From assembly GCF_015711645.1 (NCBI RefSeq), contig NZ_JABTEX010000006.1:124001-188000 (forward strand): a stretch of DNA of 64,000 nucleotides, in the 5' to 3' direction. The position numbers and the translations under genes were made by a program. The notes under the pieces were generated by a model. The model had not been told where the DNA came from and made no database searches. It worked only from the letters and a program-made list of their open reading frames with translations. The first letter of the stretch is position 1. Each line of letters opens with the position of its first letter. Shown here piece by piece: positions 3,169 through 48,459 of this stretch. Source of the DNA: Planomonospora sp. ID82291. GTDB taxonomy: Bacteria > Actinomycetota > Actinomycetes > Streptosporangiales > Streptosporangiaceae.

Positions 3169-3170
3169 GG

Positions 3171-7412: not shown

Positions 7413-10285
7413 GGCAGGCCTCCGGCGGCGGCGGGCATGTAGACGTAGACGCCGAGCAGGTCAGCGGGTTTGTTCGCGATGACGGTGATCTTGCTGGTGC
7501 CGCTCTGCCGACTGGCCTCCCGGACGCGGGCGTGCGAGTCGCGTAGCTGCTCGGCTGCGGCGTCGGCCTCGGCGTCGAGTGCGTCTTCCAGGTGCCACAG
7601 CAGCCGGGGCTTGGTCGCGGGCTCGCGATCGGGTGCCTGGCGGGTCTCCAGGGCCAGCAGCCGCTCCAGGTCGTCGCGGGCCAGGTCGGGGGCGATGTTG
7701 CCGCTGGGTTCAGCAGCCAGCAGCGCCTCCACGTCCTGCGGCGGCAGCCACTCGGGGTTGTCCGGCCGGCCGCGGAAGGCCAGCACGCGGGCTTCCTCGG
7801 CGACCAGCGGCCGGGGCCCTTGCCGGCCGGGGAGGGTCAAGTGCATGCGGAAGCGGACCAGCAGCAGCGTGGTACGGCGCTGCACCGCATTGGTGCGCAT
7901 GACGCCGCAGCGCCGCGCGGGGCGCGGTCCGGGTGTCTTCGGGTCGAGTGCGGCATCCAGCACGTAGCGGGCGATGGCGCCCACAGCCGGGTCGGTGCGG
8001 TCCAGGTGGGCGTGGCGGCGCGGCACCGGCAGGTCGCGGTGGAACGGCAGCGGCTGGGGGTGGCCGGGCGGCAGCGCGTCGCGCAGCCCGGGCGGCAGGG
8101 TCGCGGTGACGGCCGCGAAACCGTCCTCCCGCGCGGTCATGGAGGAGCCGAGCGCGTCGAGCGCCTCGCGGGCGAAGGTCTCGATCTCGGTCGAGGAGCC
8201 GAGGCCGGCGCGGATCTCGGCCAGTTCCCGGGCGACCTCGTCGGGTTTGATGCCGGCCTGGGCGAACTTGGTGCGGGAGGTGCGTTCCTTGGCCGCGGAG
8301 CTGTCCCATTCGGCGTGCAGGTCGGTGGCGGTGAACCCCTCCAGCGGCACCTGCTCCCAGGTCTCGGTGCTGCTGGTGAGCAGCTCCTCCATCAGCGCCT
8401 CGACCAGCTGGTTGGAGAAGTTCGGCACCGGGACGCTGACGCCGAGGCTCCTTCGGATCTCCTCGTGCTTGCGGATCAGTACCCGCATGACGATCTCGTC
8501 GATCAGGTTGTCGGCGCCGAGCATCGTGACCGCGCGGACCTTCTCGGCGGTCTGGCCGAACCGGTCGACGCGGCCCTCGCGCTGCTCGTGCCGGGTGGGG
8601 TTCCACGCCAGGTCGTAGTGGACGACGGCCTGGAAGGCGTCTTGCAGGTTGACGCCTTCGGACAGGCAGTCGGTCGCGACCAGCACGTGGCGGCCCTCGA
8701 CGGCGCGCAGCTCGTCGATGCGGTTCTCGCGTTCGCTGGGCGGCAGCGTCCCGGTGACGCACGCGACGGTCGCGGCCGTGCCCAAAGCGGTGCGCAGGTG
8801 CTCGGCGACGTATTCGGCGGTGTCGATGAACCGGCAGAACACGATCGGGTCGTAGCCGTCGGCCAGCAGCCCCTGGACCACGCCGCCCAGCGCCTTCAGC
8901 TTGGTGTCCCCTCGTCCGGCCAGGGCGTCGGCGGCCTTGGCGAAGCGGACCAGGCGGGCCCGTTCGGTCTGGTCGTGCTCGTCGAGGTCGTCGGAGCCGG
9001 GGATCACGTCGACGGATTCGGCCGCCTCGTCTTCGGCCATGTCCAGGACGGTCGCGCGGCCGATCCGGTCGGCCTCCTGCGGGGTCTCGGTCTCCACGCC
9101 TTTGGCGCGGGTGCGCAGCGTGGCCGCGGCGGCGCGGGGCGAGGAGGCCAGGGCGCGCAGCAGCGCCAGCACCGACCAGTAGCGGACCCGCTGGCGCAGC
9201 TGCCCGCCGGAGGTGTCGCGGACCGTCTCGCGGGCGTAGGCGAGGACCTGCCGCAGCAGGGCGCGGTAGTCGTCGGTGAGGTGGTAGCGCTCCTCGCGGG
9301 TCTCGCGCGCGGAGGGGAACTTGGTGTCCTCTTTGAGGTAGGTGCGGATGTCGCCGCGGCGGCGCTGGACCATGTGCCGGGCGAGCTGCTCGCGGCCCTT
9401 GGCCTCGTCGAGGTTCAACTTCGCCAGGGTGGGGTCGAGCAGGCCGATCAGGTTGCGGAAGCTCTCGTCCTTGCCGCTGTGCGGGGTGGCGGTGACCAGC
9501 AGCAGGTGCCGGTCGGGGTCGGCGGCGAGTTTGCGGACCAGGTCGTAGCGGAGCATGCGGCCGCCGCCGGTCGAGTCGTCGGCGACGCAGGTGTGCGCCT
9601 CGTCCACGATCACCAGGTCGGGGCAGGCCCGCACGAAGTCGTCGCGGTGCCGGGGCGACTTGATGAAGTCGGTGGAGACCACCGTGTACCGGTAGAAGTC
9701 GAAGATCGACTGGTCGTCGCCGATGAGGTTCTTGTGCAACCGCTTGACGGTGGTCGGCAGCACCAGTTCGGCGTCGATGCGGAACTTGTCGGCGAGTTCC
9801 TGCTGCCACTGCTCGGCCAGCGCCGGGCTGCACAACACGGTCAGGCCGGTGGCGCTGCCCTGGGCGAGCAGTTCGGTGGCGATCAGGGACGCCTCGATGG
9901 TCTTGCCGATGCCGACGTCGTCGGCGATCAGCAGCCGCGCCGTCTCCTGGCGCAGCGCCATCAGCAGCGGCACCAGCTGGTAGGGGCGCGGTTCGACGGC
10001 CAGGCCGGCCAGGGACCGGAACGGTCCGGCAGTGGCGCGAAAACCGACGCGCAGCGCCGTGCGCAGCAGGCCCGCGCCGACCGCGTTGCCGGCGTCGCCG
10101 GGCGGGGGCGGCGGGAACGTCGCCTGGGTGACGTCTTCGACGCCGGTCAGGATGGCGGCGATCTCGTCGTCGCCTCCGCCGAGCGGTCGGGCGATGAGGA
10201 AGCCCTCGTCGCTGTCGGGCAGCACGACCCAGTCGCGGCCTCGGGCGTTGACCAGGGATCCGGGGGTGAAGACGGGCAACGTCAC
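7409..10285 (-). CDS. SNF2-family helicase, DrmD-like
   Basis: This is a 958-residue protein from GTG. The start is preceded by a perfect AGGAGG and overlaps the upstream helicase stop (GTGA). Motif I is DDVGIGKTIE near residue 123, motif II IVDEAHTC near 224, motif III VTATPHSG, and motif VI REGRVDRFGQ near 568, with the helicase C-terminal lobe between about 450 and 620. This is the DISARM DrmD / RapA-like layout of superfamily 2 translocases, in which a single large protein has a long C-terminal helical part (650-958) of no clear family. In class 1 DISARM, DrmD is the marker gene and lies beside drmMI, as here. Expected role: ATP-driven DNA translocation or remodelling during recognition of invading DNA. 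Confidence 0.85.
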   Translation of the reverse strand: MTLPVFTPGSLVNARGRDWVVLPDSDEGFLIARPLGGGDDEIAAILTGVEDVTQATFPPPPPGDAGNAVGAGLLRTALRVGFRATAGPFRSLAGLAVEPRPYQLVPLLMALRQETARLLIADDVGIGKTIEASLIATELLAQGSATGLTVLCSPALAEQWQQELADKFRIDAELVLPTTVKRLHKNLIGDDQSIFDFYRYTVVSTDFIKSPRHRDDFVRACPDLVIVDEAHTCVADDSTGGGRMLRYDLVRKLAADPDRHLLLVTATPHSGKDESFRNLIGLLDPTLAKLNLDEAKGREQLARHMVQRRRGDIRTYLKEDTKFPSARETREERYHLTDDYRALLRQVLAYARETVRDTSGGQLRQRVRYWSVLALLRALASSPRAAAATLRTRAKGVETETPQEADRIGRATVLDMAEDEAAESVDVIPGSDDLDEHDQTERARLVRFAKAADALAGRGDTKLKALGGVVQGLLADGYDPIVFCRFIDTAEYVAEHLRTALGTAATVACVTGTLPPSERENRIDELRAVEGRHVLVATDCLSEGVNLQDAFQAVVHYDLAWNPTRHEQREGRVDRFGQTAEKVRAVTMLGADNLIDEIVMRVLIRKHEEIRRSLGVSVPVPNFSNQLVEALMEELLTSSTETWEQVPLEGFTATDLHAEWDSSAAKERTSRTKFAQAGIKPDEVARELAEIRAGLGSSTEIETFAREALDALGSSMTAREDGFAAVTATLPPGLRDALPPGHPQPLPFHRDLPVPRRHAHLDRTDPAVGAIARYVLDAALDPKTPGPRPARRCGVMRTNAVQRRTTLLLVRFRMHLTLPGRQGPRPLVAEEARVLAFRGRPDNPEWLPPQDVEALLAAEPSGNIAPDLARDDLERLLALETRQAPDREPATKPRLLWHLEDALDAEADAAAEQLRDSHARVREASRQSGTSKITVIANKPADLLGVYVYMPAAAGGLP

Positions 10286-13200
10286 TTCCTCCTGCTGGCG
10301 CCGAAGACGCTCGGGTACTTGCTCACGATCTGCGTGTAGTCCTCACCGTAGGGGACGCGGATGACGCTCCAGCCGAGATCACGCAGCTCGTCCTCGGCGT
10401 CTGCGTCCCGGCCGGGCGCGCCGGCGTCGTCAGGGCCGTCGACGAAGACGGCCACGGTGCCGTAGAGCAGGTCCGGGCGGGCCGGGCAGCCGGCCGGCTC
10501 CGGGCTGATCCTGTCGGGGGCGCGGTACTCGTGCTCCTGCAACCAGGCGGTGAACGCGTGCCGCGGATCGTCGCCTTCGACGCCCAGCCGTACCGGCTCC
10601 CACGCCTCGTGCGGCTTGGTGAGGGCAGGTTCGGGGACGCGGGCGCGGGCGCAGGCCAGCAGCAGGTCGCGGACCAGGTGCCGGTCGATCAGCTGGTGGT
10701 AGCTCTGGTTGCCGTACGACAGCAGGCAGTCGTAGCAGGCCTTGGCGCAGCGCTCGTCGTTGATGGCGCCGCCGGTGTCGGCGCCGGTGTCGGGGTCGAA
10801 GTGGGCGATCTCCAGCGCCCGTCGCGCGGCCCGGGCCAGCGCGTCGTCTTCCATCACCAGGCGGCGCAGCACGCCGGCGCCGCCTTCGGAGCTCTCGATG
10901 AACAGCGCCCGCCCGCGGCTTTCATCATCGGGCAGCAGTTCGCTGACCAGCTCGCTGTCCTCCAGCTGGAACTCGGCCTCGATACCGCGTTCCAGCGCGT
11001 ACATGAAGCTGGTCGCCTCCTGCACGGTGACCGGGCGCTCCAGCCGGGTGATGAGGATGTTGCGGCGGTCCTCGACGTAGGGGATGACGAGCTGCTTGGT
11101 CTGCACCAGGCCCGCGTCGTCGACCGGGTGCGGGTCAGGGGTCAGCGCGTTGCTCTCCGACAGCCACCGGCCGGTCCGCACGTTGATCCAGAACCCGTCG
11201 GTGGTGTGCCGCTTGCGGCCCATGTTGGTGACCCGCACGGTGGCCGTGTCGCCGTACTGCAACTCCAGCGCCGCCCGCCCGCCGTGAACGGCCGCCGCGT
11301 CCAGGCGGCCGGGCCGCACTCCGTGGTCGTTGAACCGGTAGGAGGTGATGAGGTCGTAGCCGGCGCGGCGGCGCTCCTCCTCATCGGAGGAGATCCGGTC
11401 GCGGCGGATCGTCTTGACCGTCTGCAGGCGCAGCAGCCGGTGCATGGTCTTGCCCAGCCGGCCGCCGCAGGACTCGCAGACGTCGGTGCCGACCTGCGAA
11501 TCGTGCAGGTAGCCGCAGAACTCGCAGCGGCGCGCCGCCCGGGTGTCCAGGCCGCCCCCGCCCTGCTCGGTCGGGGTGAGCTGGACCTCCTTGACCTGGT
11601 AGCGCGAACCCTCGTGGTAGATGAGCGCGTCGGGGCCGAACTCGCGGATCGCGATGAACCGGGGGCGGTGGATGAACTCGACCTCGGTGTTCTTGCCCTT
11701 GCGCGCCGAGATGTAGGCCCGCAGCGGCAGGCGCGGGAAGGAGTAGCCCGGCAGGAACCCCTCGGAGGCCAGGTAGCGGTAGGAGTAGAAGTCGGTCTGG
11801 AAGTCGGAGGAGTCCTCGTTGCGCAGCAGCTTGAGCTGGTTTTCGGCTTCCCGGCGGCGCGCGGTCGCGATATCGCGGGCGCTCTTGCCGGTGGAGTGGT
11901 CGCCGATGATGCGGTGCTGCTCTTCGCGTTCGGCCTGCGCGGTCCGATACAGGTCGCGCCAGCGGTCGAAGGCCGCGCCGAACTCCCCGGGCGCGTCCTG
12001 GACGGCGCGGTCGATCCAGTCCGGATGCCACCAGGAGGTGGCCTCCAGCTCGCCGACGAGCTCGGCCAGGACGAACCGGGCCCGCTCAGCGGCCCGCGAG
12101 CGCGCATCGACGCGGACAGCGGCCGCGGCGACTTCCGCGAGCAGCGGGAACCCGGGAGCGTCGATGTCGAGGATGCCGGCGATGGAGCTGTCCAAGGCCA
12201 GGCCGGTCTCGGCCAGCCAGAGCGCGTGCACGTGCGAGCGGATCAGGTCCTCGTTGGTCAGATCCAGGCGCGGGGCGGCCACCGACCCGGCGACCATCTG
12301 GTCGCGCTTGCGGAAGTAGTACTGGTCGTGCGCGTTGCCGGTGGCGCAGTAGGTGACCACGAGCGCGGGCTGCCCGGACCGGCCGGCCCGCCCGGCGCGC
12401 TGGGCGTAGTTGGCCGGGGTGGGCGGCACGTTGCGCATGGCCACCGCACCCAGGCTGGCGATGTCGATGCCCAGCTCCATCGTGGGTGAGCAGTACAGCA
12501 CCTGCAGGTCACCGTCGCGGAACTGCTCCTCGCGCAGCGCGCGGGCCTCGTTGGTGACCTGGGCGGTGTGCTCGCGGGCCTGCAGCCCGGCCAGGTTCGC
12601 CGCTTTCTGCCGGTAGAGGTCCTGGAAGAACGGGTTGACCCGCGGCCCCTTGTCGGCGGCGACCTGCTTGCGCAACCGGTCCTCGGCACCCTTGCCGTCA
12701 CCGAGCCGCCACAGGATCGACGAGGCCTTGATCTGGTAGCCGTCCCGCTCCATGGTCAGCACCCCGCACCGTTCGGTGATGCTCAGCAGGTCGCGGATCA
12801 TCGCGGTGGCGTCGTCGCGGACCAGGCCGTGGCGGGCGAACTCTTTCTGCTTGAGCAGGTGCTTGCCGTACACGCCGTAACCCGTCAGGTGCAGGTCGCG
12901 GCTGCCCTGGCGGCCCGCGCGCGGGTAGGCGACCGCGGTCGGCACGACCTGCTCGGTCGGCTCCATCGACCACGGTTCCTTCAGATAATGGCGGCTTTCC
13001 TCCTTGATCTGCTCGAACCCGGTCGCCGTCAGGCTGTCGACGTCGATGGCCAACACCCGCCGCAGCTCGTCCAGCAGGATGCGCAGCAGCTCCTCGCGGT
13101 GCTCGGGCACATCGTCGCGCAGCGCGGGGTGCGCGCCGTCCCACAGGTCCTGAGCGGCGGCGATGTCGGGCAGGTCGAGGTAGTCGACCTTGAGCAGGCC

Positions 13201-15474
13201 GGTCTGCTCCAGGTTGGGCATGGTGATCCGCCAGCCGCGCTCCAGGTCCATGTACAGGCGGTAGCTGATCAGTTGGCGCAGCGCCTTCCACGTGTTGCGT
13301 TCGGCGGTGAAGCGCACCTCGGGGTTCTGCGCGAAATCGGCCAGGGTCAGGTTGAGCGCGTCGGTCACCTTCTGCGCGATCACCTCGTGGGTGAGGCCGT
13401 CGGGGGCGTTCAACAGGGCCCGGTACAGCGCGCCGCGCAGCTGGACGACCTGGACGAAGTCGTTGAAGTGCCCGGCCTGCAGGCTGGCGTCCTGGCGGTT
13501 GTCGGTGAAGGCCAGCAGCTTGCGCTGCTCCTTGTCCAAGACCGGGTCGTGCTCGCGCAGGGTGCGCACCACCGTGGAGCTGAGCACGCTGGTGGCCGAG
13601 CTGCGCCCCTCCACCGCCAGTGAGCCCAGCTTGGCGAAATCACTGCCGCGCACCTGCTCATACGAGGTGCGGCAGCGCAGGCAGAACGTGAACGGCGCAC
13701 GAACGTAGGCGGCCTTGGCGCCCTCGGCGTCGAGCCGGCCGTCGGGGGCGAGGTGCACCACCTCGGGCAGGTATCGCTTCTTCGCGCCCACCACATCAGG
13801 GGTGCCGTCCGACAGGGTCTCCAGCCAGGACTCGGGCAGCCGCTGCTCGTCGATGGCGATCTGCAGCGTGTCGGGCCAGGCGAAGTCCTCGGAGATGTAC
13901 AGGTAGCCGTTGAGCTCCTCGCCGCTGGCGTCGCTTTCGCGGCGGGAGGTGAAGCGGGTGGCGCCCGCCTCCTCGATCCGCCGCACCGTCAGGTACTCCT
14001 GGCCGCATTCGCGGCAGAACGAGACCGGGACCAGCAGGTGGTCCTCCTTGCCCGGCTCGGGGACGACCGTCTGGTAGCGGCTGGTGATGTAGCGGGTCGC
14101 CTCCGGCTCGATGCTCACATACACGTCGTCGCCCTTGGACAGGAACTGGTGCAGCCGGAACGCGAACACCGGCCGCCGGGTCCGCGGATGCGTCAGGGAC
14201 GCCCCCCGCTTCAGCGCGTCCTGGATCGCGGTGGCGCACTCCTGATGCGGGCGCCCGGTCAGCTCGGCAAGATCGCGGGCGGCCTCGGGCACGGTCCGCG
14301 GCCGGGGCGGACGGGTCAGCTCCTCGGTCACCCCGAACCGGGTCTCCACCCAGGAGGCCAGCGGGTCGGCGATGAACTCCTCGTAGCCGTCCGGGGTCGT
14401 CAGCGCCGTGACGGCCTCAGGGTCGCCGGTCGTGGCACGCTCCAGCGTCTCGCCGATCACGTGGGCGGGCGCCACCGGCACGCCGAACAGCCGACCGGCG
14501 ACCTCGGCCACCTTCTGCCGCCGGACGCTTTGGCTGCCCTCGGTCGTCATCGTCGCCGACGTGCCCACGCACTGGATCTGTGTGGCCCCGCATGCGTCAC
14601 GCACCCGGCGCACCAGCATCGCCACGTCCGCGCCCTGCCGCCCCCGGTAGGTGTGCAGCTCGTCCAGGACCAGCCAGTGCAGCCCTTGGGCGGCGGTGAT
14701 GAGGCTTTCGCGCTCGCCGGGGCGGGTCAGCACCAGGTCCAGCATCACGTAGTTGGTCAGCAGGACGTCCGGCGGGTCGGCGAGGATCCGCTTGCGCTCC
14801 TCCCCTTTTTCCTGGCCGGTGTAGCGGCGGAAGGTGACCGGCTCCCGGCCGGGCCCGTACCCGCGCTGAAGGAACTTCTCCAGCTCGTGCACCTGGCTGT
14901 TGGCGAGCGCGTTCATCGGGTACACGATGATCGCTTTCACGCCCGGCCGGTAGGCGCCGCTCTCCTTTTGCCGCAGCACCCAGTCGACGATCGGCACGAT
15001 GTAGCTCAGGCTCTTGCCCGAGCCGGTGCCGGTGGTCAGCACGTAGCTCGCGCCGGTGCGGGCGATCTCCACGGCCTGGCGCTGGTGCCGGTGCAGGTTG
15101 AGGATCTGCCCCGGGTTACCGTCGTCCTTGCCGACGCGGAAGATCCGCTCGCATTCGGCAGTGAGGAGACCGCGCTGCACCAGGTCGGAGACGGAGCCGC
15201 CGGGGGCGAAGTTCGGGTTCAGCGACAGGTAGGGGTCGGGCCACTGCTCGCCGGCGGCCTGCTGCCGCTCCACGTGCTCTCTGATCCGCCGGTTCTGGAT
15301 CTCCGTGAACCCCGAGGTGAACGCCGCATAGTCAGCGATCAGGTGCTCATGAACCTTGAAGACGTCCATCCCCGCCCGTATCTCACGATTTTTTTGGATC
15401 TCGTGGGAAAGCACGCTATCGGCCTGGCGCGCCGGCCGGTATGGATTCACTGATCGTTTCTTCTCGTTCATCAT
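10282..15474 (-). CDS. Giant DEAD/DEAH helicase with DUF1998 and a Vsr-like C-terminus (DrmA-DrmB / DruE-like)
   Basis: The protein has 1730 residues. Motif I TTGTGSGKSLSY lies near residue 143, motif II LVLDELHTYRGRQGADV near 267, motif III GTSATM near 300, and motif VI QRAGRAGRSGQ near 1023. A CxxC zinc ribbon (CEFCGY ... CESCGG) lies near 1311. The DUF1998 signature CAKACYDCLLSYGNQ lies near 1573. Residues about 1655-1730 read RPDLLYGTVAVFVDG ... LGWSVIRVP, resembling a Vsr/DUF559-type endonuclease fold. In DISARM, DrmA (helicase) and DrmB (DUF1998) are separate. In Druantia, DruE is one protein of about this size. This gene therefore has the fused layout but sits with DISARM-type partners. 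It is first in the operon, with two consecutive ATG codons at its start and no gene immediately upstream. Confidence 0.85.
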   Translation of the reverse strand: MMNEKKRSVNPYRPARQADSVLSHEIQKNREIRAGMDVFKVHEHLIADYAAFTSGFTEIQNRRIREHVERQQAAGEQWPDPYLSLNPNFAPGGSVSDLVQRGLLTAECERIFRVGKDDGNPGQILNLHRHQRQAVEIARTGASYVLTTGTGSGKSLSYIVPIVDWVLRQKESGAYRPGVKAIIVYPMNALANSQVHELEKFLQRGYGPGREPVTFRRYTGQEKGEERKRILADPPDVLLTNYVMLDLVLTRPGERESLITAAQGLHWLVLDELHTYRGRQGADVAMLVRRVRDACGATQIQCVGTSATMTTEGSQSVRRQKVAEVAGRLFGVPVAPAHVIGETLERATTGDPEAVTALTTPDGYEEFIADPLASWVETRFGVTEELTRPPRPRTVPEAARDLAELTGRPHQECATAIQDALKRGASLTHPRTRRPVFAFRLHQFLSKGDDVYVSIEPEATRYITSRYQTVVPEPGKEDHLLVPVSFCRECGQEYLTVRRIEEAGATRFTSRRESDASGEELNGYLYISEDFAWPDTLQIAIDEQRLPESWLETLSDGTPDVVGAKKRYLPEVVHLAPDGRLDAEGAKAAYVRAPFTFCLRCRTSYEQVRGSDFAKLGSLAVEGRSSATSVLSSTVVRTLREHDPVLDKEQRKLLAFTDNRQDASLQAGHFNDFVQVVQLRGALYRALLNAPDGLTHEVIAQKVTDALNLTLADFAQNPEVRFTAERNTWKALRQLISYRLYMDLERGWRITMPNLEQTGLLKVDYLDLPDIAAAQDLWDGAHPALRDDVPEHREELLRILLDELRRVLAIDVDSLTATGFEQIKEESRHYLKEPWSMEPTEQVVPTAVAYPRAGRQGSRDLHLTGYGVYGKHLLKQKEFARHGLVRDDATAMIRDLLSITERCGVLTMERDGYQIKASSILWRLGDGKGAEDRLRKQVAADKGPRVNPFFQDLYRQKAANLAGLQAREHTAQVTNEARALREEQFRDGDLQVLYCSPTMELGIDIASLGAVAMRNVPPTPANYAQRAGRAGRSGQPALVVTYCATGNAHDQYYFRKRDQMVAGSVAAPRLDLTNEDLIRSHVHALWLAETGLALDSSIAGILDIDAPGFPLLAEVAAAAVRVDARSRAAERARFVLAELVGELEATSWWHPDWIDRAVQDAPGEFGAAFDRWRDLYRTAQAEREEQHRIIGDHSTGKSARDIATARRREAENQLKLLRNEDSSDFQTDFYSYRYLASEGFLPGYSFPRLPLRAYISARKGKNTEVEFIHRPRFIAIREFGPDALIYHEGSRYQVKEVQLTPTEQGGGGLDTRAARRCEFCGYLHDSQVGTDVCESCGGRLGKTMHRLLRLQTVKTIRRDRISSDEEERRRAGYDLITSYRFNDHGVRPGRLDAAAVHGGRAALELQYGDTATVRVTNMGRKRHTTDGFWINVRTGRWLSESNALTPDPHPVDDAGLVQTKQLVIPYVEDRRNILITRLERPVTVQEATSFMYALERGIEAEFQLEDSELVSELLPDDESRGRALFIESSEGGAGVLRRLVMEDDALARAARRALEIAHFDPDTGADTGGAINDERCAKACYDCLLSYGNQSYHQLIDRHLVRDLLLACARARVPEPALTKPHEAWEPVRLGVEGDDPRHAFTAWLQEHEYRAPDRISPEPAGCPARPDLLYGTVAVFVDGPDDAGAPGRDADAEDELRDLGWSVIRVPYGEDYTQIVSKYPSVFGASRRK

Positions 15475-41099: not shown

Positions 41100-41375
41100 T
41101 TATGGACCATGTGCAAAGCCATATGAAAGGTGAGTGCACAAGAAAATCAGGATGGTTTCGACATCTCGTCTCAAAGAGTCAGCGAGCGGGCACCCAAGCG
41201 ACGGGCATGATGGTTCGCCCTCAGCGCTAATTCCCACAGCAATCCATGTCAGAGCGCATAGAGTCAATATCACAGTCAACCCGCTGAGGCGGCGGTGCGG
41301 CATGGCGTCCGCGGGCGGAGCCCGGACCGCGCCTCGGAGGTCATGCGCCCGGCCCGAGACGCGCCGGGCGGTCAC
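41100..41375 (-). CDS. Small membrane protein
   Basis: The protein has 91 residues from a GTG overlapping the upstream methyltransferase stop (GTGA). Two hydrophobic stretches, LTVILTLCALTWIAVGIS and VETILIFLCTHLSYGFA, flank a Cys-containing loop (EPSCPSLGCPLAD). An internal ATG at 41303 would keep both. The function is unknown. Coupling to the preceding gene is the main support. Confidence 0.45.
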   Translation of the reverse strand: MTARRVSGRAHDLRGAVRAPPADAMPHRRLSGLTVILTLCALTWIAVGISAEGEPSCPSLGCPLADSLRRDVETILIFLCTHLSYGFAHGP

Positions 41376-42127
41376 GGCTCTCGCCTGCCGATGGCACCGA
41401 CGACCCGGTAGTGCCGATGAGTCGACGTGCTCGGCCGGTAGCCGGGCATCCGCCAGACGCGCACGTCGGTCATGCCCGGGCGCGGCAGCGCCCAGCCCGC
41501 CATCAGTTCCCGGACGTACTTACGGGTGTGGGGTTCGGCAGAGGGGGCGGGCAGGGCGTTGACCGTCCTGGCCGACGATTCGGCCGATGACTCGGCGTCG
41601 TTGTGGACCGCCTGGGAGACCACCAGCCGGCTGCCGGGTGCCGCACGCTCGTGCAGCGCCGCGGCGATCGCGCGCGGCTCGGGCTCGTGGGCGGTGATCC
41701 CGCCCAGGATGATTCCGATAGGCCGGAGAAAGTCCAGCACCGTCGCTGCGTCCTCGCGCGCCAGCGCCGCGGCGATGTCACCGAGACCACCCGGCACCAT
41801 ATGCACGTACGGCGTGGCCGCCGGAGTCAGGTAGGCCAGGCCGTAGCGCAGCGGTTCGGCCTCGTCGTCAAGGTAGAGCATCCGGGCGGCCGGGCGGCGC
41901 CGCTGGACGATCTCGTGCACGCTGGTGCCGTCCAGCAGCCCGGACGGGACCTGCAGGTACTGCTCGATGCCGGAGTCGACCAGAAGGGCGGCGGCGTATC
42001 GCAGGAAGTCGCGGTGCGCTCTGAACAGGGTCGTCGACACCAGCGGGGGCTCGCGGTAGGGCCAGCTGCGCGGGCGGCGTGTCGCGGCGGTGGGCCAGGC
42101 AGGCGCGGACGCCTCACCATTGATCAT
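41372..42127 (-). CDS. Methyltransf_19 (DUF574) SAM-dependent methyltransferase
   Basis: The protein has 251 residues. The segments ARMLYLDDEAEPLRYGLAYL, VLDFLRPIGIILGGITAHEP and a final strand (GMTDVRVWRMPG) match the actinomycete S-adenosyl methyltransferase family PF04672. The usual IRQFLDIGTGLP motif I is replaced by a weaker SGIEQYLQVPSGL segment, so SAM binding may be reduced compared with the paralogue at 43686. It is the fifth gene of a minus-strand operon that runs from 44507. Confidence 0.75.
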   Translation of the reverse strand: MINGEASAPAWPTAATRRPRSWPYREPPLVSTTLFRAHRDFLRYAAALLVDSGIEQYLQVPSGLLDGTSVHEIVQRRRPAARMLYLDDEAEPLRYGLAYLTPAATPYVHMVPGGLGDIAAALAREDAATVLDFLRPIGIILGGITAHEPEPRAIAAALHERAAPGSRLVVSQAVHNDAESSAESSARTVNALPAPSAEPHTRKYVRELMAGWALPRPGMTDVRVWRMPGYRPSTSTHRHYRVVGAIGRREP

Positions 42128-42144
42128 CGTGTCTCCTTCCGCGG

Positions 42145-42858
42145 TCAGGCGGCGGAGGTGAGGGAACGCTCCTGCCGGTTGATGGCGGTGGCGCAGGCAG
42201 GACAGGTGCGCTCCAGGTCAGGGTCGAACGGCGGTGACCACTCCCCGATCAGGATCAGGTTCGCGCGGGTGCCGCAGGCGGCGGTCACGGGTCCGTTGCG
42301 GTGCCGGAGCGGGAGCCCCGCGGCGTGCCGGAGGCGGTCGCCGGTCAGGGCGGTGCCGTACTCGGGCGGGCGCGCGGGCTCAGGCGCGGCGGGCGTGATG
42401 GCCAAGTCCTCCAGGTGGAAGGTGAAGCGGTGCGCTCGGCCACCCGGAGCGGGAACCGACTCCTCCAGCTCCACCAGGGCGTGGGTGCCGCCGCGCAGCG
42501 CGACGATCTTTCCGCACTGGCCCACGAGGTAGGTTCTCAGCGCGTACAGGTCGCCGTGGCTGAGGAAGATCCGCTCGACCCGGGCACAGTCGCCCAACCG
42601 CGGCTTTCGCCCGGACGCGCCCGCGGTGATCAGCTCCAGACCGGAGACCGCCAGCGTCCAGGTGCTCTGCCGACCGGTCACCGACGGCGGGCCGGTCGTA
42701 TCGACGGCCACCTCGGCATGCTGGCCGCCGGCCAGGACGGCGGTCACCGTCCCGGTGCGGCCGATGATCCACTGCCCCTTGCGCCCGTCGATGAAGCCGC
42801 CCTTCAGCGAGTGGATGTAGACGGTGTCGCCTGCGGCCAGCGGGCGCGCGGGCGTCAC
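42145..42858 (-). CDS. Protein of unknown function with two barrel-like repeats
   Basis: The protein has 237 residues. Two similar halves carry GDTVYIHSLKGGFIDGRKGQ then WIIGRTGTVTAVLAGGQHAE, and GQCGKIVALRGGTHALVELE, resembling small beta-barrel (KOW-like) modules. The end has C-P-A-C with a nearby C (ERTCPACATAINRQ), a possible zinc site. It overlaps its upstream neighbour by 4 nt (GTGA). No function is known. Confidence 0.6.
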   Translation of the reverse strand: MTPARPLAAGDTVYIHSLKGGFIDGRKGQWIIGRTGTVTAVLAGGQHAEVAVDTTGPPSVTGRQSTWTLAVSGLELITAGASGRKPRLGDCARVERIFLSHGDLYALRTYLVGQCGKIVALRGGTHALVELEESVPAPGGRAHRFTFHLEDLAITPAAPEPARPPEYGTALTGDRLRHAAGLPLRHRNGPVTAACGTRANLILIGEWSPPFDPDLERTCPACATAINRQERSLTSAA

Positions 42859-43151
42859 CGGGCTTTCCTCTGCACGCGCCAGGCCCGTGCCTGCCAGCGG
42901 TGGCAGGCGGCCGTCAGGTCCGCCAGGGCGCGGGCGGTGACGGTGAAGGTCCAGGCGCCGTCATCGGTGCGCGAGAAGGTGACGGCGCCGGGCCGGGCGA
43001 GCTGATGCAGGCGCAGGAGCTGTACCTGGACGACGGTCAGGCGGCCGTGCCAGGTCGCCACCCATGCGCCGGCGTCGTGCGGGCCGGGCCGATGGTGGAA
43101 GCTGAAGCCGAGGTCGGGTCGTACATAAGCGGGGGCGGTACCGCTGAACAT
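42855..43151 (-). CDS. Small protein of unknown function
   Basis: The protein has 98 residues from ATG 43151, starting MFSGTAPAYVRPDLGFSFHH. It is strand-rich, and Trp-containing segments (GAWVATWHGRLTVVQVQLLR, DGAWTFTVTARALADLTAAC) suggest a compact alpha/beta fold. The stop overlaps the following gene (GTGA), so the two are translated together. No family is recognised. Confidence 0.55.
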   Translation of the reverse strand: MFSGTAPAYVRPDLGFSFHHRPGPHDAGAWVATWHGRLTVVQVQLLRLHQLARPGAVTFSRTDDGAWTFTVTARALADLTAACHRWQARAWRVQRKAR

Positions 43152-43296
43152 GACAGTGGTTCTCCTCGTGGCGGTCGTGCGGGCCGACCGGGCCTCGTGG
43201 GGAGGGCCGCGGCCGGCCCGCATCACGCGTCCAGGGGTGCGGGCGCGCGTGGGAGCCGGCGGACAGACGGTGGTCCGCGCCTGCCCGCCGGCCGTC

Positions 43297-43689
43297 TCAT
43301 GGCCTCACCGGCGGCGGAGGCGCAGGCGAGGTGGGCGGGGATGGGGAAAGCGTCGCGAGCACGATCTCGGTGACGCGGTGGGAGATCCGCACGGCCGCCC
43401 GGTCGACCTGGTCGGCTGGGTGGTGGGCGATGAGCTCGCGGCCCGGTCGGCGGCTGCGGGGGTCGGTGGTGCGTCCGGTCGGCCAGAAGAACACCGTCCC
43501 GTCCGCGTCGGCCGCCACCATCAGCAGCTCCCCGATGCGCAGTCGCGGGCCGTCGTGGTCGTCGACGAGGTGCGGGCGGACGCGGTGCGGCTCCAGGGCG
43601 GTCAGCAGATGCCGCAGGGCGGTCCGGTCCCGCGGTGGACGGGCGGCTCGGCGCAGCATGTCCGCGGCGGGGCCGGTGAGCGGGATCAC
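43297..43689 (-). CDS. Small protein of unknown function
   Basis: The protein has 130 residues, starting MIPLTGPAADMLRRAARPPR, with LRIGELLMVAADADGTVFFW then PTGR in the middle and a proline-rich end. It starts 4 nt inside the upstream methyltransferase stop (ATGA). It is probably soluble. The 145 bases to the next gene hold nothing I can identify. Confidence 0.55.
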   Translation of the reverse strand: MIPLTGPAADMLRRAARPPRDRTALRHLLTALEPHRVRPHLVDDHDGPRLRIGELLMVAADADGTVFFWPTGRTTDPRSRRPGRELIAHHPADQVDRAAVRISHRVTEIVLATLSPSPPTSPAPPPPVRP

Positions 43690-44507
43690 GGCTTCACCCC
43701 CACGGCGGCTAGACCCGCCGGTGGGCCGGGCGGCACACCTTCCTCAGGCGGTTTCGGCCAGGCGTGCACGGACACCAGGCCGGGGTTGAGCAGCTCCAGG
43801 CCGGGACCGTGCGGTCCCGGGTCGGTGAGCAGGCGCTGGATCTGCGCGGCGGTGCGCGGGTGGACATCGACGGGGTAGATGTCCTTGGCGGCGGCGATCT
43901 GCTCGGGGTCGTGCCCGTCGCTGGTGGCGTGCGAGAAGATCAGCATGCTTCCGGCGGTCAGCGCCTCCATGTAGGAGGTGATCGTCTTCGCTGCGGTGCC
44001 GTCATCCCAGAAGTGGGCCAGCGCCCCCATGATCAGCCCTGTCGGCTGCGCCGGGTCGATGAGCCCGCACGCCTGCGACAGGGCCAGCGCCTCGTCGGGG
44101 TGCAGCGCGTCGCCCAGGACGGCGGCCAGCCCTGCGCCGTGCTCGCCGTACAGCAGCCCCTGCCAGTGGGTGATGACCGCTTTTTCGTGGTCGAGGTAGA
44201 CGAACCGGATGTCCTCCTCGATCGTGCGGGCCACGTCGTGCAGGTTGCGGTCGGGCCGGGGCAGGCCGGCGCCCAGGTCGAGGAACTGGCGCACGCCGCG
44301 CTGGGACGCGGCGCGGACGGCCGCTTCCAGGAAGGCGAGGTTGGCGCGGGCGGCCTGCCGCACCGCCGGTATCAGCACGGTGAGCTGCGCGGCGACCTCC
44401 CGGTCTGCGGCGAAGGCGTCTTTCCCGTCGCTGGACAGTCCTTGATAGACCCGGTAGACGGCGGGCGTGTGCGGGTCGAATCCGCTGGTGCTCGTGTGCT
44501 CGGTCAT
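43686..44507 (-). CDS. Methyltransf_19 (DUF574) SAM-dependent methyltransferase
   Basis: The protein has 273 residues from ATG 44507. GVRQFLDLGAGLPRPDRNLH is the family motif I, IRFVYLDHEKAVITHWQGLL motif II, and GLIMGALAHFWDDGTAAKTI follows. This is the PF04672 family that in actinomycetes usually lies beside XRE or TPR regulators, as here. It opens the minus-strand operon. The palindrome at 44605 lies about 100 bases upstream and the regulator gene at 45004 is divergent. Confidence 0.8.
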   Translation of the reverse strand: MTEHTSTSGFDPHTPAVYRVYQGLSSDGKDAFAADREVAAQLTVLIPAVRQAARANLAFLEAAVRAASQRGVRQFLDLGAGLPRPDRNLHDVARTIEEDIRFVYLDHEKAVITHWQGLLYGEHGAGLAAVLGDALHPDEALALSQACGLIDPAQPTGLIMGALAHFWDDGTAAKTITSYMEALTAGSMLIFSHATSDGHDPEQIAAAKDIYPVDVHPRTAAQIQRLLTDPGPHGPGLELLNPGLVSVHAWPKPPEEGVPPGPPAGLAAVGVKP

Positions 44508-44604: not shown

Positions 44605-44627
44605 CCCGTGTCCGTTTCGGACACGGG
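44605..44627. promoter_or_regulatory. Palindromic operator-like site shared with 46927
   Basis: CCCGTGTCCG-TTT-CGGACACGGG is a perfect inverted repeat with 10-base arms. A further half site CGGACATCC follows at about 44630. A near-identical palindrome precedes the regulator at 46978. A dimeric DNA-binding protein is the likely ligand. Confidence 0.65.
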
Positions 44628-44833
44628 ATCGGACATCCCGGGGGCGCCGCATCGGAAGCCCGCGGCTCCGCCGCAACGGAGCCGCAAGGCATCCGGCCGG
44701 GCCTGGCGGCCGTCGCTGCGGTGGACCCGGATGGAGCCCTCATCGGTTCCCCCCTTCGGGCGGATGTCATCGGCGGACATCTTCCAGCGAACCGTGATCA
44801 AGGCCGGATGAGTATGGGGTCAAGACCTGCAGG

Positions 44834-45007
44834 GTGGTCAAAGTGGTCAAAGATCATCTGCGGGCCGGATGGGAGCTTGTGGCCATTCGCCCCGACAGCG
44901 CCGATGCTGGCGACTACGGTGAGCTGCACGACGTGGCAGCGGCCCCGCCGCCCACGCACGCCGGTCAAAGTGGTCAAAGATCCGTCTGGCACGGAGGCGC
45001 CCCATGA
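44834..45007 (+). CDS. Possible 57-residue protein coupled to the regulator
   Basis: The frame from GTG 44834 ends in a TGA overlapping the regulator's ATG (ATGA). It reads VVKVVKDHLRAGWELVAIRP then DSADAGDYGELHDVAAAPPP and THAGQSGQRSVWHGGAP. The middle has natural, acidic composition. Both 20-base direct repeats lie within it, so part of the sequence may serve as operator as well. No family match. Confidence 0.4.
   Translation: MVKVVKDHLRAGWELVAIRPDSADAGDYGELHDVAAAPPPTHAGQSGQRSVWHGGAP
44836..44982. repeat. Pair of perfect 20-base direct repeats
   Basis: GGTCAAAGTGGTCAAAGATC occurs at 44836-44855 and again at 44963-44982. Each copy contains GGTCAAAG twice (second as GGTCAAAGATC), so four tandem-type sites lie in 147 bases between the divergent methyltransferase and regulator genes. 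The spacing of repeats within a copy is 9-10 bases, one helical turn, which suits cooperative protein binding on one face of the DNA. Confidence 0.7.
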
Positions 45008-46386
45008 CGCGCGAACGAAACGAGCGCCTTGCCGCGCTGCTGAGTGAAGCGGGCTGGTCACGGGCGCAGGCCGCGAGTGCGTTCAACCGCGTCGCCCAGG
45101 AGAACAACCTGCTCGGCTACACCTGCGTCGGCCGTTCCCACATCAGCATGTGGGTCGCCGGGACGCAGCCATCAGGCGCGGCCCCCATAATCTTGTGCCA
45201 GGCACTGTCCCGCCGCCTGAAGCGTGTCGTCACCCCCGATGAGCTCGGGTTCGCCGTTCCCAACGCGTCCGCGCAGCAGGTGCTGGAATGGCGCGTCGAC
45301 CCGCTGATCGCGCTGACCGACGTGGAGAGAACGGACGTGGACGCAGACCGCAGAAGCCTGTTGAGCGGCGCGGTGTACTCGGTGGCCGCCTTGGCGCTGC
45401 CCGACCAGGAATGGTGGGAAGCCATGGCCGCCCGCTCCCCCGCGCCGACCAAGCATCAGCGGGTCGGGCGCGGTGACGTGACCACCGTTCAGGAGCTCAC
45501 CGCGGCCTTCTCCCGGATCGACCAGCGGCGCGGCGGCGGCCACGGCAGGAAGGCGCTGGTGCAGTACCTGCATACCGACGTCGCCGCGTTCCTGCACGGG
45601 ACATTCCCCGACGAGCAGGTCCGGCGGGACATGTTCTCCGCCGCCGCGGAGCTGGCCTACCTGTCCGGCTGGATGGCTTTCGACAGCGGCGAGCACGCCC
45701 TGGCCCAGCAGTACTTCACTCTGGCCGTGAAGCTGGCGGCGCGCGCCGATGACCCTCCGCTGGCCGGCCACATCCTGCGCGCCATGGCGCACCAAGCCAT
45801 CGACCTGGGGTTCGCCGCCCAAGGCCTCAGCCTGGCGACGGCCTCGATGGAAGGCCGGCGCTACACCTGCGCCACCCCCCGGGAGCGGGCGCTGCTCGGG
45901 GTCGTGCGCGCCCGCGCCCTGGCCGCGAGCGGCAGCAAGCAGGCCGCGGCCAAGGCGCTGCTGAAGGCCGAGGATGATCTCGCCTCGGCCAGCGCCGACA
46001 TCGAGGAACCACAGCGCACCTTCTTCTTCGCCGAGGCCTCGCTGGCCCATGAGACCGCCTGCACGTTGCGGGACTGCGGTGACCGCCAAGGCGCCATCCG
46101 CCAGTTCCGGCGCAGCGTCCGCACCCGCGGGTCCGCTTTCCGCCGCACCCATGTCGTGACGCTCGGATACCTGGGCGCCACGCAGATCGCCGCCGGCAGC
46201 GTGGACGAAGCCTGCGTCAGCTGGAGCACCGCCCTGGACGCGATGGAGGAGGGCATCTACTCGGGGCGGGCCCGGCAAGCGGTCGTCGACATGCGCCACC
46301 TGCTGTCGCCGTACCGGCACCGCAAGATCGCGGCCATCACCGAACTGGACGCGCGAGCCGCCTCGTACCTGGCCCACGTAGATTGA
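45004..46386 (+). CDS. Large TPR-type actinomycete regulator
   Basis: The protein has 460 residues. Residues 5-75 form a helix-turn-helix-like start (RNERLAALLSEAGWSRAQAA ... VGRSHISMWVAGTQPSG), followed by a short linker, and residues about 160-450 form tetratricopeptide-like repeats (YLSGWMAFDSGEHALAQQYF, LAVKLAARADDPPLAGHIL). This layout matches NsdA/BldR-type regulators of antibiotic production and development in actinomycetes. It is divergent from a Methyltransf_19 gene, a common pairing. The neighbouring repeats and palindrome suggest auto- or cross-regulation. Confidence 0.75.
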   Translation: MTRERNERLAALLSEAGWSRAQAASAFNRVAQENNLLGYTCVGRSHISMWVAGTQPSGAAPIILCQALSRRLKRVVTPDELGFAVPNASAQQVLEWRVDPLIALTDVERTDVDADRRSLLSGAVYSVAALALPDQEWWEAMAARSPAPTKHQRVGRGDVTTVQELTAAFSRIDQRRGGGHGRKALVQYLHTDVAAFLHGTFPDEQVRRDMFSAAAELAYLSGWMAFDSGEHALAQQYFTLAVKLAARADDPPLAGHILRAMAHQAIDLGFAAQGLSLATASMEGRRYTCATPRERALLGVVRARALAASGSKQAAAKALLKAEDDLASASADIEEPQRTFFFAEASLAHETACTLRDCGDRQGAIRQFRRSVRTRGSAFRRTHVVTLGYLGATQIAAGSVDEACVSWSTALDAMEEGIYSGRARQAVVDMRHLLSPYRHRKIAAITELDARAASYLAHVD

Positions 46387-46418
46387 TCACCTCACGACGA
46401 AGGGACGAGGGCACACCC

Positions 46419-46895
46419 ATGGCAGACTCACTGACGATCCTGCCCATCGGCACCGTGGTCGGCGGGCGGACCGAGCCGACCGACGACCACTGGAGCGGCA
46501 CGGCGATCATCCGCCTGAACGCCGACTTCCCCCTCGAGGTCGTCCAAGGCCTGGAGGAGTTCTCCCACCTGCTGGTCGTCTGGCACTTCCACCGGGCCGC
46601 ACCTGAGGATGTCGCTCTGCACGCCCGCAGCCCGCGGGGCAATCCCGCCTGGCCGGCCACCGGCACGTTCGTGCACCGCAACCACCGCCGGCCCAACCAG
46701 CTCGCACAGTCCTTCCCCCGGCTGGTGAAGGTCGACGGCCTGGACTTGCACGTGACCGACCTGGACGCGATCGACGGCACCCCGGTCTACGATCTGGCGC
46801 CCTACTTCATCGAGATGGGCCCCCGGGGCGCGGTACGCGAACCCGCGTGGCCGGGCGAGATGCTCACCGACTACTGGGGCGAGGCGCAGGACTGA
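46419..46895 (+). CDS. TrmO/TsaA-like (UPF0066) protein
   Basis: The protein has 158 residues from ATG 46419. PIGTVVGGRTEPTDDHWSGT, LEEFSHLLVVWHFHRA, ARSPRGNPAWPATGTFVHRN and LDLHVTDLDAIDGTPVYDLA trace the whole UPF0066/TsaA domain, whose studied members methylate N6-threonylcarbamoyladenosine in tRNA using SAM. Compared with E. coli TrmO it lacks the C-terminal part. Its place between two regulators rather than near tRNA genes suggests another substrate may be possible. Confidence 0.8.
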   Translation: MADSLTILPIGTVVGGRTEPTDDHWSGTAIIRLNADFPLEVVQGLEEFSHLLVVWHFHRAAPEDVALHARSPRGNPAWPATGTFVHRNHRRPNQLAQSFPRLVKVDGLDLHVTDLDAIDGTPVYDLAPYFIEMGPRGAVREPAWPGEMLTDYWGEAQD

Positions 46896-46926
46896 AACAC
46901 CCGCCGGGGACCGCAGGTGCGCGCCG

Positions 46927-46951
46927 CCCCGTGTCCGCTTCGGACATGGGG
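46927..46951. promoter_or_regulatory. Palindromic operator-like site shared with 44605
   Basis: CCCCGTGTCCG-CTT-CGGACATGGGG has 11-base arms with one mismatch. It lies 27 bases before the ATG of the regulator at 46978, and another half site (CGGACATCTG) lies between. Apart from the loop and one arm base it equals the site at 44605. Confidence 0.65.
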
Positions 46952-46977
46952 CGGACGTCTGCCCGGACATCTGCCGC

Positions 46978-48459
46978 ATGACGCTTCCACCCGCCGAGGC
47001 GGCGGCTTACGCTGCGGTCGACAAGCACCCGCCGGAAAGGGTCGGTTACACCGTGGAGCAGGTGGAGGAGACCTACCTCAAACAGCTTGCGCGCGCCCGC
47101 GGACTGCTGAAGTACGCCAAGTTCCTGGAGTCCTACCGGCGCACCGGGGTCGGGCTCGGCCTGCGAAACCCGGATGTCACCACCCGTCAGTACCGGCGGT
47201 GGCTGGCCGGGGATGTGAAAACCGCCCCGAACCCGGACGCGTGCCGGATTCTGCACGACATGTTCAACTGCCAGGTGGAGGACCTGTTCCGGCTGGTTCC
47301 GGTCACCGCACCCACCCCGGTCGGCGCGGATGAGGTCATCGACCTGTCCCCGGCCGCAGGCGCCATCTGGAGCACCTATGAGCCCCCGCCCGCCGCACGC
47401 ACCCTGCACGAGTTGATGATGAGCGCCGCTGAGCAATCCCGACAGTCCGCCGCCCAGGCCGAGGCCGCGATCGGCCGCAGCACCCTGGAGCTTTTGGAAG
47501 CGGACGTGGTCCGCACCGCCCGCACCTACCTGTCGCAGTCCCCGGTCGTGATGTTCCCCAAGGTCAACGCGTTGCGGACCCAGGTGGAGACGCTGACCGG
47601 CCAGACCCGGCAACCTGAGCAGGTGCGCACCTTGACGTTCCTCAACGGGCTGCTGTGCGCGCTGCTCGCCGAGGCCAGCATCGACCTGGGCGAGCACCGG
47701 TGGGCGCACGATCACGCCACTGCGGCGTGGACGCACGCCAACAACATCGGCCACGGGCCGCTGGCGGTGTGGGCGCGCGGGATGCAGGCGACCAGCTCGT
47801 ACTGGTCCGATGCTCCCTCCGACGCGCTGGTCGCGGTGCACCGCGGTGAAGAGCACCGCCCGACCGGGGTACCGAGCGCCCGGCTGAACAGCATCAAGGC
47901 CCGCACCTGGTCGCATCTGGGCGACGCCGACCAGGTGCTGCAGGCGGTGCGGGCCGCCCAGGACGCCCGGGCCGCCGCCTCAGGCGAGGACGACGACCTG
48001 GCCTACGTCGGCGGCGTGTTCGAGTGGGACCGCATCCGGGAGGAGCGGTGCGCCTCCACCGCGTTCCTGGAGCTCACCCAGCGCCGCCACAGCGAGCTGG
48101 AGGCGGCGGCGCTGCGCTACTTCACCGGCCTGATCATCGAGCACGCCGGGCAGGCGCTGGAGCTGTCGCGGGCCGCGCCGGCCGATCAGCGTTCACCCAT
48201 CGTCGAGGCGACCATCCTGCTCGACATGAGCACCGCCCAGCTGCTGCTGGGGGATGTGGCCGGCGCGCACGCCACGCTGCGCCCGGTGTTCGCGCTGCCG
48301 GCGGACATGCGCACGTTCCCGGTACTGCACCGGCTGCGCGGCCTGCGGGCCCCGCTGGCCGCGATGCCGACCATCCGCGCGGTGCACGACCTGCGCGAGA
48401 ACCTGGCCGTCTTCGCCGCCGCCTCCACCGTGCGGGCGCTTCCCCCGGGCGGTGCCTAG
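46978..48459 (+). CDS. Large helix-turn-helix/TPR-type regulator
   Basis: The protein has 493 residues. The N-terminal region (ARGLLKYAKFLESYRRTGVG ... TTRQYRRWLAGDVKTAPNPD, ACRILHDMFNCQVEDLFRLV) is an XRE-like DNA-binding start, as in other actinomycete regulators with an RRWLxG motif. From about residue 160 on it is all helical with TPR-like units (LLCALLAEASIDLGEHRWAH, NSIKARTWSHLGDADQVLQA). It is probably the partner of the shared palindromes. It converges with the epimerase at 48456, which it overlaps by 4 nt. Confidence 0.75.
   Translation: MTLPPAEAAAYAAVDKHPPERVGYTVEQVEETYLKQLARARGLLKYAKFLESYRRTGVGLGLRNPDVTTRQYRRWLAGDVKTAPNPDACRILHDMFNCQVEDLFRLVPVTAPTPVGADEVIDLSPAAGAIWSTYEPPPAARTLHELMMSAAEQSRQSAAQAEAAIGRSTLELLEADVVRTARTYLSQSPVVMFPKVNALRTQVETLTGQTRQPEQVRTLTFLNGLLCALLAEASIDLGEHRWAHDHATAAWTHANNIGHGPLAVWARGMQATSSYWSDAPSDALVAVHRGEEHRPTGVPSARLNSIKARTWSHLGDADQVLQAVRAAQDARAAASGEDDDLAYVGGVFEWDRIREERCASTAFLELTQRRHSELEAAALRYFTGLIIEHAGQALELSRAAPADQRSPIVEATILLDMSTAQLLLGDVAGAHATLRPVFALPADMRTFPVLHRLRGLRAPLAAMPTIRAVHDLRENLAVFAAASTVRALPPGGA

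Follow-up and report, generated by a model that had tools for sequence, protein, structure and literature searches.

The 64,000-nucleotide stretch of Planomonospora sp. ID82291 analysed here (contig NZ_JABTEX010000006.1, positions 124,001 to 188,000; hereafter the window, whose numbering is used throughout) contains two near-identical palindromes, one close to a methyltransferase gene (MT19, the Methyltransf_19 gene at 43686-44507, minus strand) and a regulator gene (the 45004 regulator, 45004-46386, plus strand), the other upstream of a second regulator gene (the 46978 regulator, 47053-48459, plus strand). We propose, with a probability of roughly 60%, that both palindromes are operator copies for the 46978 regulator, a member of the NsdA family, an estimate that covers the mechanism outlined below and the control of the methyltransferase. 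The palindrome is the conspicuous feature and can mislead, since across the relatives of this regulator evolution has instead kept a direct repeat. The elements concerned are as follows, with numbers prefixed L denoting loci of relatives and those prefixed G denoting genomes in all that follows.

44605-44627, between the divergent MT19 and 45004 genes: palindrome 1, CCCGTGTCCGTTTCGGACACGGG, with perfect 10-bp arms around a 3-nt centre
44630-44637, plus strand: half-site CGGACATC following palindrome 1, 12 bp from the unit within that palindrome
44774-44781, plus strand: isolated half-site CGGACATC
46928-46950: palindrome 2, CCCGTGTCCGCTTCGGACATGGG, with an extended form at 46924-46954 that has one mismatched pair
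46952, plus strand: half-site CGGACGTC following palindrome 2
46941-46971, plus strand: three same-direction units CGGACATG, CGGACGTC and CGGACATC, with GAC at 46943, 46954 and 46966 (spacing 11 and 12)
47008-47013, plus strand: putative -10 box TACGCT, 42, 54 and 65 bp from the three units

The two 23-bp palindromes are identical at 21 of 23 bases, as the original prediction had claimed, with the second starting at 46928 where that prediction had 46927; the half-site it had described after each palindrome is likewise present (CGGACATC at 44630 and 46964, CGGACGTC at 46952). With up to 3 mismatches allowed, the search pattern proposed at that time matches only these two places in the window, each on both strands (shuffle mean 0.08), a total of 4 matches that was reached in none of 100 shuffles of the window. 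Across the genome (7,576,605 bases in 15 contigs) and with up to 2 mismatches, there are 2 forward and 2 reverse matches, compared with 1 and 0 for the backward control. These genome-wide results are counts whose places were not itemised, but 2 + 2 is what the two window palindromes give on two strands; the full pattern thus appears to occur only at these two sites, and not in the many coding-region copies that would have spoken against the original prediction. A shorter core, TGTCCGNNTCGGACA, is matched exactly at one further place in the genome besides the two palindromes (C7:1935026), inside an open reading frame (ORF), and with one mismatch the core occurs elsewhere, nearly always within ORFs. 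Among the places examined (27 loci and 7 further ones) only L017, besides palindrome 2, is outside ORFs, save a poor one of 106 aa, and a genome-wide palindrome regulon is therefore unsupported. It is important to note that the ORF test is mechanical, and that it also places palindrome 1 (L002) within a long open frame before MT19; the core matches L008 and L015 were judged coding by eye. The half-site CGGACATC on its own is not rare, with 7 occurrences in the window versus 4.0 expected, a number reached by 10 of 100 shuffles.

Palindrome 2 is continuous with the direct-repeat array, its right arm being the first array unit, so that the palindrome can be described as one unit plus an inverted copy. 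The array is the sole chain of at least three units in the window (Markov sequence yielded 3 chains in 3.84 M strand-nt), and its tight form, CGGACRTNTNC-CGGACRT, occurs once in the source genome, at the promoter of the 46978 regulator. A loose form (GGACNT-N4-6-GGACNT) is not enriched genome-wide, with 64 and 65 occurrences versus 76 and 55 in the control. We also considered CGGACATTTGCCGGACAT in G003 as a similar regulator site and rejected it, the adjoining ORFs, by eye, including no such regulator. A sigma-70 consensus scan found no promoter, and the patterns used for the unit and for the -10-like box were chosen after inspection of the first promoters.

The evidence that carries the proposal comes from relatives of the 46978 regulator. 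A search of 295 genomes of the family returned 12 matches, the window included, at E <1e-140 (the next being 3e-95), to which a truncated member in G287 (2.8e-64, profile positions 1-216) was added; 297 genomes drawn from the order contributed L226 and L227, for a total of 15 promoters, with weaker rows left out. Without assuming any unit sequence, an 11-bp direct repeat is found in 14 of these 15 promoters (shuffle mean 5.7) and a 22-bp repeat in 12, neither count being reached in 200 shuffles. When one promoter was retained per group, the groups being formed by reading the sequences, 7 of 7 have the repeat at both lags, and 29 upstream regions of MT19 relatives, used as a control, have no excess at either. 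Nine of the first 13 members have, at the regulator promoter and in gene orientation, chains of at least three GAC[AGT]T units spaced by 10-12, 21-23 or 31-33 bp. In this same set, to which the register counts are confined (L226 and L227 excluded), units lie 42-45 bp from a -10-like box (TA[CG]NNT or TTACT) in 10 members, 52-54 bp in 7, 63-65 bp in 4 and 74-77 bp in 7, with single counts at 17, 26, 33, 36, 48, 56 and 59 bp; 12 of the 13 have a unit at 42-45 or 52-54 bp upstream. The unit itself varies within the subfamily (GGACAT, GGACTT, TGACTT and, in L226, a CTGCCTTCT-type unit) while the spacing stays, which is what one would predict were each regulator to recognise a repeat of its own. 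It may be, alternatively, that some other DNA-binding protein uses GGACAT arrays and that the NsdA-family genes are merely its targets, given that self-binding is deduced from position and conservation only; but if one factor served all members, the unit would not be expected to vary between them, and the single genomic occurrence of the tight array, at the promoter of the regulator itself, is also hard to square with this explanation, which we consider unlikely.

We hypothesize that the 46978 regulator would occupy neighbouring units along a single face of the helix and, once bound, would contact RNA polymerase and activate its own gene, with the TPR domain receiving a signal. Activation seems likelier than repression because the units are upstream of the expected -35 region. 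The copy at 44605 would extend the reach of this regulator to the methyltransferase operon, and the inverted pairing in the palindrome might permit binding in both directions and could thereby serve the divergent MT19 promoter, which is the weakest step of the mechanism.

A number of observations weigh against this proposal, on the side of the array as well as that of the methyltransferase. The palindrome occurs in none of the 14 subfamily relatives (L160 has only a short TGTCCGGGACA, and L226 a palindrome of other sequence), which rules it out as a conserved element. Among the first 13 members, four (L157, L158, L161 and L165) lack a promoter chain of three units, the chain in L165 being elsewhere; the only box in L157, L158, L161 and L164 is TACTAG or TACTGG, and L162 has none. 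The promoters are not fully independent, as L088/L159, L157/L161 and L162/L163 align with each other. A fresh application of the GAC[AGT]T pattern to the later-added L226 and L227 found no chain of three in either; in L226 a different unit (CTGCCTTCT, CTGCCTTCT and CTGACGTCT, by eye) clearly recurs at 11 bp, and in L227 the repeat is only weak, suggesting that the spacing generalises better than the unit. Around 44605, neither strand has a TANNNT or CANNNT box at 42-45 bp, and the only boxes at 53-54 bp from units of this area are CATGAT (minus strand) and CAGGGT (plus strand, from the unit at 44774). Finally, L197, the nearest relative of MT19, has no unit upstream. Even so, the claim of the original prediction that one regulator probably controls both sites is still the best reading, with the 46978 product, whose subfamily promoters carry phased units, as the likely controller; the palindrome, for its part, is not the conserved element, and control of the methyltransferase is suggested by sequence shared within one genome.

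The genes of the locus bear on which protein might read the palindromes, and are as follows.

41372-43689, minus strand: rest of the leftward gene set headed by MT19, comprising ORFs at about 43297-43689, 42855-43151 and 42145-42858 and a second Methyltransf_19 gene at 41372-42127
43686-44507, minus strand: MT19, S-adenosyl methyltransferase (PF04672, 5.8e-48), first gene of the leftward set
45004-46386, plus strand: 45004 regulator, NsdA-family TPR protein (406 bits, cut-off 75)
46419-46895, plus strand: TrmO-like gene (tRNA methyltransferase-like), paired with the 45004 regulator in 12 of 12 ortholog loci
47053-48459, plus strand: 46978 regulator, NsdA-family, an N-terminal four-helix region followed by a TPR superhelix
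48456-49466, minus strand: NAD-dependent epimerase gene, convergent to the 46978 regulator
44836-44852, plus strand: GGTCAAAGTGGTCAAAG, 9-bp direct repeat, upstream copy
44963-44979, plus strand: GGTCAAAGTGGTCAAAG, downstream copy adjoining the start of the 45004 gene

The palindromes precede a Methyltransf_19 gene and a regulator, as originally described, although the start of the latter is more likely a GTG at 47053 than 46978: homologs align from 47053, and at this very place L160 has GTGs as the start codons closest to its conserved part. With such a start, palindrome 2 would precede the gene by about 100 bp. The leftward gene set is assumed to form one operon. The frame of MT19 is open back to 44801, and MT19 could start upstream of palindrome 1, in which case the palindrome would be inside the gene; in the version starting at 44507, however, Pfam already matches from residue 8. 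The epimerase gene also adjoins a regulator of the 46978 type in L088, L089, L090 and L159, and other subfamily members have convergent epimerase or Methyltransf_19 genes. Downstream of two members, on the same strand, are SLOG cluster4 (LOG-like) genes (L157:2860-3336 and L164:2568-3038).

The 45004 regulator, which belongs to the same broad family and whose gene is the nearest regulator gene to palindrome 1, might itself bind both palindromes. Comparison of 12 ortholog loci (L167-L178, 49-86% identity), each with the TrmO neighbour, makes this very improbable: TGTCC-N0-8-GGACA is present in none of the 12 upstream regions (560 bp), and GGTCAAAG repeats are found there instead, with an exact GTCAAA-N3-GTCAAA pair in 5 regions and a close variant in another 5. 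The pattern detects none in L171 and L177, the latter having TGCCAAAG with a similar partner, by eye. In the window, the two GGTCAAAGTGGTCAAAG copies (44836 and 44963) flank the likely promoter of the 45004 gene, and this repeat recurs in most orthologs, the close ones having it at two places on either side of a -10-like TACGGT or TATGGT. A repeat at lag 9 is found in 12 of 13 upstream regions, the window included (5.4 expected, 0/200 shuffles); among 17 relatives at greater distance, whose units differ considerably, 13 have one as well (7.3 expected, 0/200 shuffles). Lag 9 is also raised in the MT19 control (19 of 29 versus 12.8), and the sequence evidence for the 45004 regulator accordingly weighs more than the lag count. 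We conclude that the 45004 regulator probably reads its own 9-bp repeat, a putative second and independent repeat operator. It is because the 45004 orthologs lack the palindrome and have a repeat of their own, while the 46978 subfamily promoters hold their units in fixed register, that we regard the 46978 product as the likely reader. One ortholog of the 45004 gene (L178, G160:C1:4316403-4317781) is broken into two pieces that overlap, the second of which contains a TGA.

The position of palindrome 2, about 30 bases after the TrmO stop codon, raises the question of whether the palindromes act in RNA, as a terminator or mRNA end, and not as operators. Strong folding is predicted for both (-23.6 and -33.4 kcal/mol over plus-strand stretches of 46 nt, values given with no shuffle control), and one of the 12 relatives, L169, has a comparable fold after TrmO (-40.9 versus -38.2 kcal/mol over 60 nt); the other 11, however, range from -9.9 to -29.2 kcal/mol. 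Neither palindrome has a T-tract or is listed by a terminator scan, palindrome 1 is upstream of two divergent genes where no operon ends, and a hairpin would leave the half-sites outside it unexplained, so that we think this explanation quite unlikely.

At the methyltransferase side the resemblance to the regulator promoter extends beyond the palindrome, and the 44605 site may thus be either a functional second operator or the remnant of a promoter duplication. The element in question is the following.

44705-44726, plus strand: degenerate copy of the 46978 core promoter, GGCGGC..CGCTGCGGTGGAC (alignment score 27 versus 17.6 +/- 2.2 in shuffles, 0/500)

This degenerate copy is 78 bp beyond palindrome 1, compared with 51 bp between palindrome 2 and the core promoter, i.e. 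27 bp of extra spacing; within this longer stretch, between palindrome 1 and the degenerate copy, there is a GC-rich hairpin, GGCTCCGCCGCAACGGAGCC, at 44663-44682. The inclusion of a decayed core promoter, the altered spacing and the want of a good in-register -10-like box are what one would expect if the 44605 copy were functionless, a decaying duplicate of the regulator promoter left behind as the 46978 regulator and the 45004-TrmO pair were brought next to each other. It is consistent with such a history that neither an MT19 relative nor a 46978 relative is found beside the 45004-TrmO pair in any of the 12 ortholog loci, within flanks of about 1.5 kb. On the other hand, the sequence around both sites has drifted, and it is the palindrome (21 of 23 bases) and its half-site that are best kept, as under selection. 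A relic is therefore a possibility to be taken seriously but an improbable one, and we give a working operator at 44605 about twice its weight.

Little help in this matter comes from MT19 itself, which has no close relative in the 295 genomes (the best, L197, being 48% identical); a search for loci related to that of the window also found no relative. Of the 29 best MT19 relatives, one (L212, 40% identical) has an inverted pair, GTGTCC-N9-GGACAC, about 115-133 bp upstream of the gene, with a CGACAT unit just downstream, by eye; the pair, recognised as TGTCC-N9-GGACA, is loosely similar to the palindrome and may be due to chance. In L162 and L163 a convergent Methyltransf_19 gene adjoins the regulator, so that these gene types meet elsewhere too, and no array was found before that gene in either locus. 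Farther away in the window, at 1063-15474 on the minus strand, four large genes, for which the top PADLOC hits are a type II restriction enzyme, DrmMI, DpdE and DruE, possibly form a composite anti-phage defence island.

Neither regulator belongs to a Pfam family, the 46978 regulator having no Pfam match up to E 1. Both are recognised by NF053720 (NsdA-family TPR-like regulatory protein, cut-off 75 bits): the 45004 regulator with 405.9 bits (3.1e-121), well over the cut-off, and the 46978 regulator, barely exceeding it, with 79.9 bits (2.7e-22, residues 9-449 on profile positions 3-431). The predicted model of the latter (mean predicted local distance difference test score, pLDDT, 85.4) has helices at residues 8-15, 21-34, 44-52 and 61-71, of which 44-52 would be the recognition helix, followed by TPR helices; that of the 45004 regulator is poor (pLDDT 70.8). 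The TPR part of the 46978 model aligns with Rap (4gyo; Z 20.1, root-mean-square deviation (rmsd) 3.8, 272 residues), NprR (5dbk; Z 16.1, rmsd 4.4, 268 residues) and MalT domain III (1hz4; Z 18.8, rmsd 3.6, 259 residues), and an unrelated TPR protein aligns as well (8jaq; Z 20.3, rmsd 4.0, 287 residues). Given this equal score and identities of 9-12%, the comparison, which barely covers the residues before 138, indicates a TPR fold and not kinship with Rap or NprR. A sequence search of the PDB (query A3) gave matches only at E 0.4 and above. The architecture predicted for the 46978 regulator, an N-terminal helical region and then a TPR superhelix, may resemble that of the RRNPP receptors (Rap, NprR, AimR), subject to the same low identity and to the equally good match of the unrelated TPR protein.

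Among characterised regulators, NsdA of Streptomyces rimosus is reported to bind promoter regions in chromatin immunoprecipitation sequencing and electrophoretic mobility shift assays (PMC12243394), in a report that mentions predicted binding sequences and whose main text contains neither 'motif' nor 'footprint'; NsdA proteins are described as repressing antibiotic production in several Streptomyces (PMC5567329). Within the collection of papers searched, we found no operator or DNA motif for the NsdA family. The window regulators share the family profile with NsdA and NsdB but score far below the equivalog cut-offs, with 161.5 and 25.5 bits on NF050130 (NsdA, cut-off 830) and, on NF050135 (NsdB, cut-off 700), 142.4 bits for the 45004 regulator and nothing listed up to E 0.1 for the 46978 regulator. 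Upstream of 15 NsdA-equivalog genes (from one genus, inferred to be Streptomyces, with unrefined starts) lags 9 and 11 are not enriched, so that an extension to NsdA itself is unsupported. With that restriction, it is tempting to speculate that NsdA-family TPR regulators control themselves through same-direction repeats, the spacing being fixed for each subfamily (11 bp for 46978, 9 bp for 45004) and the unit following the protein, a generalisation we offer tentatively and would not yet bet on. If true, this would give the NsdA family its first operator code, in which the TPR domain would receive the signal; the palindrome of the window would then be a recent addition that also reaches the methyltransferase operon.

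The closest parallel in operator design is with the SARP regulators, such as AfsR and PimR, whose operators are described as same-direction 11-bp repeats, one helical turn apart, with monomers thought to sit side by side on one face (PMC5930380). There are differences: the 46978 regulator has no SARP or BTAD Pfam match, its reading of the site is our deduction, and classical SARP sites are reported to overlap the -35 box, although the PimR operator does not (PMC5930380), whereas the subfamily units precede the -10-like box by 42-45 bp or greater distances. The likeness is in the spacing, 11-bp same-direction repeats being shared by all but one of the subfamily promoters and the window array having spacings of 11 and 12. 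The candidate is a repeat array in fixed register with the promoter, and short DNA fragments could be tested for binding by two family members from a single locus, making the repeat a testable candidate operator for the NsdA family.

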